Origin: Opitutaceae bacterium
Lineage (GTDB): Bacteria > Verrucomicrobiota > Verrucomicrobiia > Opitutales > Opitutaceae
Direction: 5' to 3'
DNA: 64,000 bases
NCBI GenBank assembly: GCA_028691845.1
Contig: JAQUYL010000016.1
Span: forward strand, 1-64,000
Numbering within the stretch: the stretch's first letter is position 1; the number at the start of each line of letters is the position of its first letter. Of this stretch, positions 13,479 through 17,615 are shown one piece after another. Made by a program: the position numbers and the translations under genes. The notes under the pieces are model-generated. The model saw only the letters and a list, made by a program, of their open reading frames with translations. It searched no databases and had not been told where the DNA came from.

Positions 13479-13506
13479 GGTAGGGCGCGACCGCTGGGCG
13501 CGCCGT
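13479..13506 (+). repeat. REP arm, left of the RAYT gene
   Basis: The 28-nt segment beginning GGTAGGGCGCGACCGCTGGG and ending CGCGCCGT is identical over all 28 bases to 14814-14841 inside lpxB. It ends 6 bases before the RAYT start codon. Its reverse complement closely matches the right arm at 13956-13986, so the two arms form an inverted pair around the transposase gene. Confidence 0.85.
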
Positions 13507-13512
13507 GACATC

Positions 13513-13995
13513 ATGAACGTATTGCCGCAGCGAAGGAAGTTACCGCACGAAGTTCCGGCCTGGGTTCGCGCTGGCGCCACATATTTCATCACGATTTGCG
13601 GGCAGCCTCGCGGTTTCGATCGGTTTTGTCGGCAGCCGATCGCCAAGAGCCTATTCGAGGCCGTGGCCTTTCGGCAGCGAACAAAATGCTGGTATGTGCA
13701 TTTGCTGCTTCTGATGCCCGACCATTTGCATGCGCTGGTATCGTTTTCGCAAGAGGAGAGCATGGCGAAAGTGATCTCCGGATTTAAGGAGATCACTGCC
13801 AAGCTGGCCGGCATCCATTGGCAGCGCGATTTCTTCGATCACCGACTGCGCAGCGATGAATCGTTCGAGGAGAAGGCCAGCTATATTCGGATGAATCCCG
13901 TCCGCACAGGGTTGGTGGAAAATCCGGAAGATTGGCCGTGGCAATGGGAGCCAACCGACGGCGGGCCCGGCGGTCCCGCCCTACCTGAGACATGA
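13513..13995 (+). CDS. REP-associated tyrosine transposase (RAYT, Y1_Tnp)
   Basis: A 160-residue single-strand DNA transposase of the IS200/IS605-related Y1 class that processes REP palindromes. The HUH pair is H71 and H73 in LMPDHLHALVSF, and the nucleophile is probably Y124 in ASYIRMNPVRTGLVENP, a typical RAYT stretch. It is flanked by inverted REP arms. The right arm is translated as the last 14 or so residues (TDGGPGGPALPET), and the stop overlaps the lpxB start codon (ATGA). The gene is inserted between the oxidoreductase and lpxB without breaking the run of plus-strand genes. Confidence 0.9.
   Translation: MNVLPQRRKLPHEVPAWVRAGATYFITICGQPRGFDRFCRQPIAKSLFEAVAFRQRTKCWYVHLLLLMPDHLHALVSFSQEESMAKVISGFKEITAKLAGIHWQRDFFDHRLRSDESFEEKASYIRMNPVRTGLVENPEDWPWQWEPTDGGPGGPALPET
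13956..13986 (-). repeat. REP arm, right of the RAYT gene
   Basis: Reverse-complemented, this segment starts AGGTAGGGCGGGACCGCCGG and follows the left arm (13479-13506) with only a few substitutions. It overlaps the 3' end of the RAYT coding sequence. Confidence 0.8.
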
Positions 13996-15245
13996 GTGCG
14001 ACGAACACCATGCTGCCCTTTGGTCTGCCTCCGCCGGCGGCGGAAACGGTCGATCTGCTGATCGTGGCCGGAGAGCATTCGGGCGACGAGCACGCCGCGA
14101 AGATGGTGCGCGAGCTGCGGACACGCTGTCCCGGGCTCAGGATCGCCGCCTTGGGCGGTCCGGCCCTGGCGGCGGCGGGTGCTCAACTGCTGCACGATCT
14201 CACGGCGACCTCGGTCGTCGGATTTGTGGAGGTGCTGAAGCATCTTTCGTTTTATCGCGCGCTGTTGGATGCGACGCAGCGCTGGATCGGGCAGTACCGG
14301 CCGCGCGCGGTCTGCCTGGTGGATTATCCGGGTTTTAACCTGCGGCTGGCGGCGGCGCTGCGCGAACGCGGCCTGACGGTGAAAGGCGGCGGCAGAATCA
14401 AGGCGCTGTACTACATCAGCCCGCAAATCTGGGCCTGGAAGGCGAAGCGGCGCTTCGCCATGGCGCGCGATCTCGACGCGATGGCGGTAATCTTCCCCTT
14501 CGAGCCGGGGTGTTACGCCGACACCATGCTTCCGGTCGAGTTCGTGGGCCACCCGTTTGCCGCGGCCGATTACGCCCCGCCGGTGCGCTTCGACGAAGCG
14601 GGACCAATTCTGCTGCTGCCCGGCAGCCGCCGGCAGGCGGTCGAGAGGATTTTCCCCGTGCTGCTGGAGGGATTGGCGGAATTTCTCCGAACCCAGCCGG
14701 CAGCCCGCGCGGTGGCACTCTATCCCAGCGAGGAGGTGGCGGTGGTGTTGCGCGGCGTGCTGGCTGGCCGGCCGGCGTTGGCGGACAAGGTCGAGTTGCG
14801 GTGCGTTTCTGAAGGTAGGGCGCGACCGCTGGGCGCGCCGTCAGAGCCGACGAACGGCGGACGGCCCGGCGGTCCGTCCCTACCTGTTGCAGCCTCGGCC
14901 GTGCTCACGAGCAGCGGCACGATGTCGATGCACTGCGCGCTGGCAGGCATCCCCGGCGCGGTGGTATACCGCACGAATCCGCTCACCTATTTGTTCGGCC
15001 GCTGGCTGGTCAAGGTACCGTACATTGGCATGGCGAACCTGCTGCTGAATGAGGCGATGTATCCGGAGTTTATACAGGGCGCCGCGACAGCGGCCGCCTT
15101 GGGCCGGCAGCTGGCCGACTGCACCGGGAATCCGGTCCGGCGCGAACAGGCGCATGCGCAGATGACGCGGTTGCACGACCTGCTGCGGCAGCCGACCAGC
15201 GGCAGCGCGGCGGACTGGCTGGCGCGGCAGCTGGCAACCGGCTGA
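13992..15245 (+). CDS. lpxB: Lipid-A-disaccharide synthase LpxB
   Basis: A 417-residue glycosyltransferase (GT19) that joins UDP-2,3-diacylglucosamine and lipid X. Family features in order are VAGEHSGDEHAA, VDYPGFNLRLA, YYISPQIWAWK, VEFVGHPF, LLLPGSRRQAVERIFPVLLE and SSGTMSMHCALAGIPGAVVYRT. It is longer than E. coli LpxB (about 382). Codons 275-298 are the translation of a 72-bp REP doublet (14814-14885) inserted in frame just before the conserved SSGT nucleotide-sugar-binding segment. The start overlaps the RAYT stop. A predicted envelope enzyme, peripheral on the inner membrane. Whether the insert is tolerated cannot be told from sequence, but the frame stays open. Confidence 0.92.
   Translation: MSATNTMLPFGLPPPAAETVDLLIVAGEHSGDEHAAKMVRELRTRCPGLRIAALGGPALAAAGAQLLHDLTATSVVGFVEVLKHLSFYRALLDATQRWIGQYRPRAVCLVDYPGFNLRLAAALRERGLTVKGGGRIKALYYISPQIWAWKAKRRFAMARDLDAMAVIFPFEPGCYADTMLPVEFVGHPFAAADYAPPVRFDEAGPILLLPGSRRQAVERIFPVLLEGLAEFLRTQPAARAVALYPSEEVAVVLRGVLAGRPALADKVELRCVSEGRARPLGAPSEPTNGGRPGGPSLPVAASAVLTSSGTMSMHCALAGIPGAVVYRTNPLTYLFGRWLVKVPYIGMANLLLNEAMYPEFIQGAATAAALGRQLADCTGNPVRREQAHAQMTRLHDLLRQPTSGSAADWLARQLATG
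14814..14885. repeat. REP doublet (BIME-like) inside lpxB
   Basis: Exactly 72 bp, or 24 codons. The left half is identical to the left RAYT arm over 28 bases; the right half (CGGACGGCCCGGCGGTCCGT then CCCTACCT) is its imperfect inverted copy, so the element can fold into one long hairpin. It contains no transposase gene. It looks like a non-autonomous element mobilised by the RAYT encoded 0.8 kb upstream. Confidence 0.85.
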
Positions 15246-15562: not shown

Positions 15563-17494
15563 TTATTCGAGCTTGGAGAGTTCCTCCTTCACCTCCGCTG
15601 CGGTCAGCGGGAAGTAGGCGGAAGTTCGCACCGGCTCCTGGCCCTCGCGGCTGAGGATGTAGCGGAAGAATTCCTTGATCTGTGGCGGCACCGGCTGGCC
15701 CGGCACGCGGTTCAGACGAACGTACATATAGCGTGTCAGCGGATAATGGCCGTTCATGGTGTTGGGGTAATCCATGGGCACGTATTCGCCGCCGTCCTTG
15801 GCGGCCACCGCCAAGGCCTTGAGGCCGGGGCCGCCTTCCTCCAAACCGCCAAAGCCGATAGCGCCCGGATCGCGGGCGATGGCCTCCGCAACCTCGGCGA
15901 GCGTGCCCTCGTGCAGGGTAGGGCTCCACGCCCCGTTGCCGAGCACGCGCTCCTGCATGTACATGGAGTTCGGCGCCACACGCGGCGGCACGTGGATGAC
16001 GATGGGCCGCTGCGCCCATTCACCCGTCAAGCCGAGCTGCCCCCAAGTGGTAATGGTCTGCGGCCGGCCGAGGATGGCCTTGAGCTGCGGCAGGGTGATG
16101 CCCTTCAGGGGATTTTTCTCGTTCACAAAGATCGCCTGGGCCGTCGTGCGCTGGGGCGTGTTGAAGCCGCCGCGCGCCACCTTGATCTCGAGCGGGTACG
16201 GACGATGGAACTTCACGTTGTAGACCACGGATTCGCCCGGCCACATCTCCCGCCCCATTGGGGCAAGGTCGGTCTCACATGCCATGAGAGAATGAAAGCC
16301 AACCAGGGTTCCGGGGTGGTCCCATCGCGCGCCCTTGTGCACCCCCGGCTGCAGGCGGCAGAACTCACGCATCCAGAGATCCATGAGGCTCTTCATGCCG
16401 TCGCTGCCGACGCTGCTGATGGCCCCGGCCACGGGAGTGGCAGGCGGTTGATAGGCGGGAAGACCCGGATCGAGCGGCGGTAGATAGCCCGAAAGCTTGG
16501 CCCTTTCCTCACCGGCATCCTGGGCGCTGAGCGCGAAGAAATGCTCAAAGTCGGCGATGATTTTCTGCCCTTCGCGACTGAGCACGAACGACAGGAACTC
16601 CTTGGTCTTCTGCGGCAGGGGGGCGCCCGGCCGGCGGTTGACCGCCAGGTAGATGTAACGGCTGAACGGGTAGCTGTGGTTAGCCACGGTCTCGGCAGAG
16701 GCGGTGACGAACGGTCCGGCATCGGTTTCGCCGAGCGCGAGGGTTTTCGTCCCCGGCGCATCGATAAATCCGCCATAGCCGATCGCGCCAGGCGTGCTGG
16801 CCACTTTCCTGACGATGTCCGGCAGGCCGGGCATCTCCTCGACATCGGCGCGCCAGAAGCCGTCTTGCAGCACACGCCGGCGAAACAGCTGCGCGACACC
16901 ACTGTAGTTGGCAAACCCTATCCCCACGATTGGCCGTTGCGCCCATTCGCCGGTCAGGCCCAGCTGCCCCCAGGTGCGCAATTCGGCCGGAGCGCCGCGC
17001 CGACGGGCCGTGCCGAAGATGGCCTCCAGCTGGGTGTACGAGATCTTCTGCAGGGGATTGGAAGCATGAACGTAGATGCCGATCACGCCGGCCTTGCCCG
17101 GCGACTGAAAGCTGCCCGATCCGACCCGCACCAGGTACGGAGCCGTCATCATGTCGCCTTTGAAGTGTATCCGGTAGGGTTCCAATTCGGAATGCCAGGG
17201 TTCGCGGGCGATCGGGGCGACATCGGCGATTTCGATGATCAGCGCGCCCACGGCCGTCGAGTTGGTCACGTGTTCCCAGTGCGATCCCCGCTTGATCTGG
17301 GGCTGGACTTTCTGGAAGGCGCCAAGCCAGGCATTGAGCAGCGGTTCCATCGCATCATGGCCGACGCTGCTAAAATCGCCGGCAACGGCGCTTTCCGGCT
17401 GATAGGCGGGCAGGGCCGGATCGAGCGGTCCGGCGGCCCGGAGCGCAGCGCTCGTGGCGAGCGTTGCAAGGAGAAACAGGGGGAGGGTTTTCAT
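15563..17494 (-). CDS. Tandem two-domain PstS-like substrate-binding protein
   Basis: A 643-residue exported protein made of two successive phosphate-binding (PBP type 2) domains. A signal peptide (MKTLPLFLLATLATSAALRA) is followed by domain 1 at about 23-345 and domain 2 at about 346-640. The same landmarks recur in both: LDP-LPAYQP start, SSVG-D-M--L phosphate loop, TWGQLGLTGEWAQRPIV (identical in both), GAIGYGG or GAIGFGG, and KEF-(S/R)-(F/Y)-(V/I)-LSREGQ near the end. PstS proteins are normally single-domain of about 330 residues. No pstC, pstA or pstB gene is nearby, so it may scavenge, store or sense phosphate rather than feed a local permease. Start chosen at 17494 for the signal peptide. 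Confidence 0.85.
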   Translation of the reverse strand: MKTLPLFLLATLATSAALRAAGPLDPALPAYQPESAVAGDFSSVGHDAMEPLLNAWLGAFQKVQPQIKRGSHWEHVTNSTAVGALIIEIADVAPIAREPWHSELEPYRIHFKGDMMTAPYLVRVGSGSFQSPGKAGVIGIYVHASNPLQKISYTQLEAIFGTARRRGAPAELRTWGQLGLTGEWAQRPIVGIGFANYSGVAQLFRRRVLQDGFWRADVEEMPGLPDIVRKVASTPGAIGYGGFIDAPGTKTLALGETDAGPFVTASAETVANHSYPFSRYIYLAVNRRPGAPLPQKTKEFLSFVLSREGQKIIADFEHFFALSAQDAGEERAKLSGYLPPLDPGLPAYQPPATPVAGAISSVGSDGMKSLMDLWMREFCRLQPGVHKGARWDHPGTLVGFHSLMACETDLAPMGREMWPGESVVYNVKFHRPYPLEIKVARGGFNTPQRTTAQAIFVNEKNPLKGITLPQLKAILGRPQTITTWGQLGLTGEWAQRPIVIHVPPRVAPNSMYMQERVLGNGAWSPTLHEGTLAEVAEAIARDPGAIGFGGLEEGGPGLKALAVAAKDGGEYVPMDYPNTMNGHYPLTRYMYVRLNRVPGQPVPPQIKEFFRYILSREGQEPVRTSAYFPLTAAEVKEELSKLE

Positions 17495-17522
17495 ATTAGG
17501 GAAGGGAGAGGGCATTAAAAAG

Positions 17523-17547
17523 CCCCGCACCGGATTCCGGTGCGGGG
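17523..17547 (-). terminator. Intrinsic terminator or attenuator just before the tandem PstS start
   Basis: Perfect 11-bp stem CCCCGCACCGG with a 3-nt loop; on the minus strand it is followed by CTTTTT. It lies only 28 bp upstream of the tandem PstS start codon. It would end transcription arriving from the exported-protein and PstS genes at 17970-19669, or act as an attenuator if the PstS transcript starts further upstream. Confidence 0.7.
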
Positions 17548-17615
17548 TCAAAAGCTTCTTTTCGCTGGGGACTACAGTGGTTTAAAAAACTTCGTGGCCG
17601 TGTCCTGCCGCTGAA

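Follow-up and report, generated by a model that had tools for sequence, protein, structure and literature searches.

Described GTAG elements and the doublet in lpxB

GTAG REPs were defined by Di Nocera et al. (2013, PMC3733652), who found some of them wholly inside ORFs, most of them in Opitutus terrae. The REP dimers inside ORFs encode 20–30 residues; two uvrA genes, DNA ligase and RNA helicases of O. terrae are mentioned with internal REPs, and recB has REPs at nearly one position in two Xanthomonas species, but different ones (PMC3733652). Gene-internal REPs are already known in the Opitutaceae through that work. REPINs have been described as mostly extragenic (PMC3116915, PMC8266576), and the RAYT (REP-associated tyrosine transposase) cleaves at CT with GTAG as a guide (PMC8266576).

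The window analyzed here is a stretch of 64,000 nucleotides from an Opitutaceae bacterium (contig JAQUYL010000016.1, positions 1–64,000), in which a 72 bp REP doublet lies inside lpxB. The doublet shares with the intragenic GTAG REPs of O. terrae (PMC3733652) the GTAG-tagged dimer in an ORF, the association with a RAYT and the bacterial family. It differs from that account in the target, lpxB, in the comparison with about 130 relatives, and in the presence of several REP families, in both orientations, at one loop. As in REPINs and TnpA-REP REPtrons (PMC3116915, PMC8266576), the two REPs form an inverted pair with a GTAG foot and the genome has a single RAYT with the same REPs, but the lpxB copy is within a coding sequence rather than extragenic. 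The Rickettsia palindromic elements (RPE; via PMC3733652), an older parallel, are likewise translated in frame in conserved genes; however, RPE-4 and RPE-6 are CGTC-tagged and without a known transposase (PMC3733652), whereas the lpxB doublet is GTAG-tagged, does not match the CGTC-type consensus at its ends, and adjoins a RAYT. The features of the locus are:

13479–13506, plus strand: left REP of the RAYT element (28 bp match to the lpxB arm)
13513–13995, plus strand: RAYT, Y1_Tnp/HUH (NF047646, PF01797)
13958–13985, minus strand: right REP of the RAYT element (sequence comparison)
13992–15245, plus strand: lpxB, lipid-A-disaccharide synthase, 417 residues, single copy, with REP-encoded residues 275–298 (PF02684, TIGR00215, structural model)
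14814–14885, plus strand: REP doublet, two GTAG-type arms arranged head-to-head (sequence, exact arm matches, fold)
14814–14841, plus strand: left REP arm GGTAGGGCGCGACCGCTGGGCGCGCCGT, same as the left REP of the RAYT element
14857–14885, minus strand: right REP arm, reverse complement GTAGGGACGGACCGCCGGGCCGTCC, same as arms on C18, C24, C31 and C33

A preliminary description of this locus gave the position, length and frame of the palindrome correctly. Position 14814 is base 1 of lpxB codon 275, and the 72 bp supply 24 codons without a stop to the lpxB frame, GRARPLGAPSEPTNGGRPGGPSLP, as had been claimed. As 72 is divisible by three and no stop interrupts the GGT-AGG phase, the lpxB frame is preserved. 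The GTAG foot is present at both ends of the imperfect palindrome (GGTAGGG... and ...CCCTACC), and the inverted arms are separated by a short spacer, as in REPINs. All 28 bases of the left arm equal those at 13479–13506, and this arm is also found at several further genomic sites; the right arm has exact copies at four more genomic places (on C18, C24, C31 and C33). The exact identity with the left arm of the RAYT element thus stands as first reported, but the reported distance of 0.8 kb does not: the identical arm begins 1,335 bp upstream, whereas the right arm of the element lies about 0.83–0.9 kb upstream of the doublet. The 72 bp fold as RNA with an energy of −52.8 kcal/mol (z −4.8), which none of 200 shuffled sequences equalled. 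A chance palindrome is ruled out by the shuffles together with the exact copies elsewhere in the genome. Both arms have exact matches elsewhere in the genome and the insertion is therefore recent, which supports the earlier proposal of a recent insertion from the REP family of the resident RAYT.

The RAYT, flanked by the same REPs, scores 92.9 bits against NF047646 (cutoff 80). The RAYT element (13479–13987) has lpxB on one side and a Gfo/Idh/MocA-type oxidoreductase gene on the other. The right REP is covered by the last codons of the RAYT, whose TGA stop and the lpxB ATG overlap as ATGA. Save for one weak match, no other RAYT is present in the source genome. A genomic search with a REP arm pattern, allowing up to two mismatches, returned 17 arms at about ten places, compared to none for the reversed control pattern. 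Since reading of the ORFs at the remaining places gave no convincing gene spanning a REP, the source genome has no clear intragenic REP besides that in lpxB; the automatic coding score is too insensitive to serve as proof.

At one of the other places (L006, G000:C18:72618), the GTAG foot of the REP provides the TAG stop of a PEP-CTERM-type protein gene. The doublets at L002, L003, L004 and L006 seem nested in a larger MITE-like repeat, as they have longer flanks in common, e.g. TAGCTATTAGACTTATCCCGCGAGTG. Beyond lpxB, on the minus strand, a 662-residue ORF (15563–17551) consists of two similar halves and resembles a duplicated phosphate-binding-type protein, an identity judged by eye.

The predicted enzyme and its extended loop

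The lpxB gene is intact, with a match to PF02684 (E 1e-68) and a TIGR00215 score above the cutoff. The preliminary description had counted another intact lpxB as evidence against its reading; the source genome (2.95 Mb, 37 contigs) contains one copy, and no second intact gene was found elsewhere in it.

The AlphaFold model of LpxB, built with 33 sequences, has a mean pLDDT of 84. Values below 50 occur solely at residues 1–7, 75–79 and 276–294, the last of these being the REP-encoded stretch, which is located between two strands. The REP-encoded residues are therefore predicted to form a disordered loop in an otherwise well-folded enzyme. Structural comparison of the model with the PDB identified GT-B relatives, including E. 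coli LpxB, in an alignment that reaches only model residue 343. The disordered insert would be expected to spare the active site, and the REP segment is presumably translated and accommodated during folding in the cell.

The loop was measured from YPS to SGTM in about 130 distinct Opitutaceae LpxBs. It comprises 68 residues in the source LpxB and 40–46 in most relatives. The source genome is the sole member of its genus in the comparison, such that the short loops are read from other genera. Relative to the nearest short-loop LpxBs (45 residues), the net gain is 23 residues, and relative to G172 (50 residues), it is 18. The 24 added codons of the preliminary description are thus accurate as the length of the element and one too many as the net gain over the nearest short loops. 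Residues 275–298 are absent from most relatives in the alignment, as expected for an insertion, and nothing corresponds to the REP-encoded segment in the E. coli LpxB structures in the PDB. These comparisons rule out that the segment is ancestral to LpxB. The lpxB doublet has the genomic features of an intragenic REP: it lies in a conserved gene, in frame, and is absent from orthologues.

Other long loops (G022, L075, L081, L093 and L131) contain extra residues with no recognizable REP and were left out of the count of carriers. LpxB of G002 (Ereboglobus; L198) contains residues encoded by a REP-like palindrome in another loop nearer the N-terminus, before the AVVLYPS strand; G125 of the same genus does not have them.

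REP-derived residues in other LpxBs and other proteins

Ten Opitutaceae LpxBs from five genera, the source and nine others, hold REP-derived residues in the loop preceding the SGT motif. A pattern for the right end of a REP in the vicinity of the SGT codons was run over 252 genomes of the family and found eight lpxB genes, those of G000 (the source), G001, G070, G167, G171, G174, G192 and G196; its other matches were not lpxB. Direct reading of the loops added G128 and G131, in which the REPs are degenerate. The inserts of G171 and G174 have an ACTCCG core. The matching REP family counts over 60 arms per genome in these two and is represented in the source genome by a single weak match. The remaining inserts belong to ACCGCYGGG-type families; an ACCGCYGGG core is found in the source, g15 and g16 inserts, and it is abundant or present in their own genomes. 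G001 and G070 retain a single right arm. The arms of the G192 doublet are in the opposite order to those of G196 and the source, although G192 and G196 share a genus.

Translated REPs also occur outside LpxB. A conservative coding test of 43 REP sites in G174 and 23 in G131 flagged six gene-internal insertions, all with Pfam support:

HrpA-type protein with DUF3418, in-frame REPs in both G174 (two) and G131
U32 peptidase, MiaB, Mfd (possibly two) and TrmA-like methyltransferase, in-frame REPs in the same G174 and G131 sample
Loci besides MiaB: L300, L307 and L315 (G174); L335 and L343 (G131)

This codon-score census is a lower bound, as it missed the insert in the source lpxB. In MiaB of G174 (L309:558–2030), an in-frame doublet, FGRAGTPLPAAAASGVAALP, is located just before the radical-SAM cysteine motif and is absent in all 19 of the genus relatives that could be read. 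The insert of the TrmA-like protein, KGRARPLGAPPSDGRPSGPSLP, nearly equals the REP peptide of the source LpxB. The LpxB doublets and the REPs in other genes have a common left arm phase, GGT AGG GCN; one alternative phase contains TAG.

A translated REP inside a gene had been considered exceptional in the preliminary description. This is contradicted by the published cases (PMC3733652), foremost those of O. terrae, and equally by the nine other LpxBs and the other conserved genes described above. The new part is the recurrent insertion site in LpxB with its common left context, and lpxB may already be in the gene list of PMC3733652; the recurrence at one loop extends the remark made there on recB. 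Genomes of the Opitutaceae, with translated REPs in several conserved housekeeping genes, will be misjudged by tools that treat REPs as extragenic.

Origin of the loop insertions

It is probable, in our assessment, that the doublet was inserted into codons of the LpxB loop, that it was mobilized by a RAYT and is near-neutral, and that insertion into this loop has been recurrent across the Opitutaceae. A REPIN-like doublet from the GTAG REP family resident in the genome would have been inserted or copied into lpxB, within surface loop codons before the strand that leads to the SGT motif. By analogy with known RAYT biochemistry, it was probably mobilized by a RAYT as single-stranded hairpin DNA; the neighboring RAYT may plausibly have made this particular insertion. 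The resulting enzyme would possess about 23 extra disordered residues, and this class of insertion may survive because the loop tolerates changes in length. The pre-SGT loop would have received REP material several times across the family, each time from the resident REP family of the genome. Rather than an adaptation, the inserted segment is most likely selfish DNA that is nearly neutral.

A tree of 90 LpxBs was calculated with the loop left out (SH-aLRT support only). The presence of REPs requires nine changes on this tree, at least eight of them forced by well-supported branches, and a single clade of carriers receives no support. Such trees cannot distinguish one gain followed by many losses from many gains. 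The lpxB genes of G192 and G193 are about 93–97% identical over most of their length but diverge at the loop, where a complete doublet is present in G192 and absent from G193, G186 and the next outgroup, G014; this favors a gain in G192. About 30 bp of flank at the G192 insert also differ from the sister gene.

A short left context, C[CT]GA[AG], read as [VIT][ST or A]EG, precedes all six complete doublets, and a comparable context is found in four of 123 distinct LpxBs without a doublet (Fisher 4e-8, kinship ignored). It is shared neither by other REPs in these genomes nor by the MiaB insert. This regularity could reflect a target preference, a residue preference, or REP-bearing loop alleles that move by local recombination. 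Together with the changed flanks of G192, it points to loop-allele exchange, conversion or target preference over simple random independent insertions.

These same data bear on a possible, if somewhat doubtful, alternative, in which one old doublet entered an ancestral lpxB, was passed between species by local recombination of lpxB and mostly lost, and had its arms gene-converted from resident REPs. The left context, the nearly identical insertion position and the altered flanks of G192 would agree with such a history, as would the non-REP loops of G172 (VAEGRATNPFAAS) and G194 (IAEGGAPALAAS), which resemble truncated left arms. However, the different REP families and the one inverted doublet would require repeated replacement of the whole element, and the g2 and g16 inserts are without the left context. 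A further possibility, likewise somewhat doubtful, is that REP doublets in the Opitutaceae have a preferred docking site in the pre-SGT loop, either through targeting of a CYGARGG context in lpxB by the RAYT or through short-tract recombination that exchanges REP-bearing loop alleles among species, the incoming REPs then being replaced by those of the recipient genome.

A RAYT element or REP doublet is found directly upstream of lpxB in five of the ten carriers, compared to two of the 103 non-carriers with enough flanking sequence (Fisher 3.5e-5, kinship ignored). This association, the 28/28 identity of the left arm and the similarity of the spacer, GAGCCGACGAACGGCGG, to the 3′ end of the RAYT, GAGCCAACCGACGGCGG, are what might be expected if the source doublet had arisen from the adjacent RAYT element by internal deletion and a local move of about 0.8–1.3 kb. 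We consider such an origin unlikely, as the right arm fits distant genomic doublets rather than the right arm of the RAYT element, and the doublet upstream of lpxB in G174 belongs to a different REP family than the loop insert of that genome. It is very improbable that the insert was selected as a functional part of LpxB, acting in regulation, membrane contact or hairpin control of the mRNA: one site has been hit repeatedly in several genera and the RNA hairpin is very stable, but the residues vary among carriers, are predicted to be disordered and are absent from most relatives, and the same elements are found in unrelated proteins.

For the study of REP spread, and of how conserved enzymes accommodate REPs, the LpxB loop offers a dated natural experiment: in a single loop of one enzyme, several REP families occur in either orientation, and nearly identical sister genes can be compared of which only some have the insert.

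Four divergent lineages have a RAYT element immediately upstream of lpxB (13479–13995 of the window, L196, L139 and L133). The four RAYTs are 59–64% identical to each other, much like LpxB itself, and an old resident RAYT upstream of lpxB is therefore possible.
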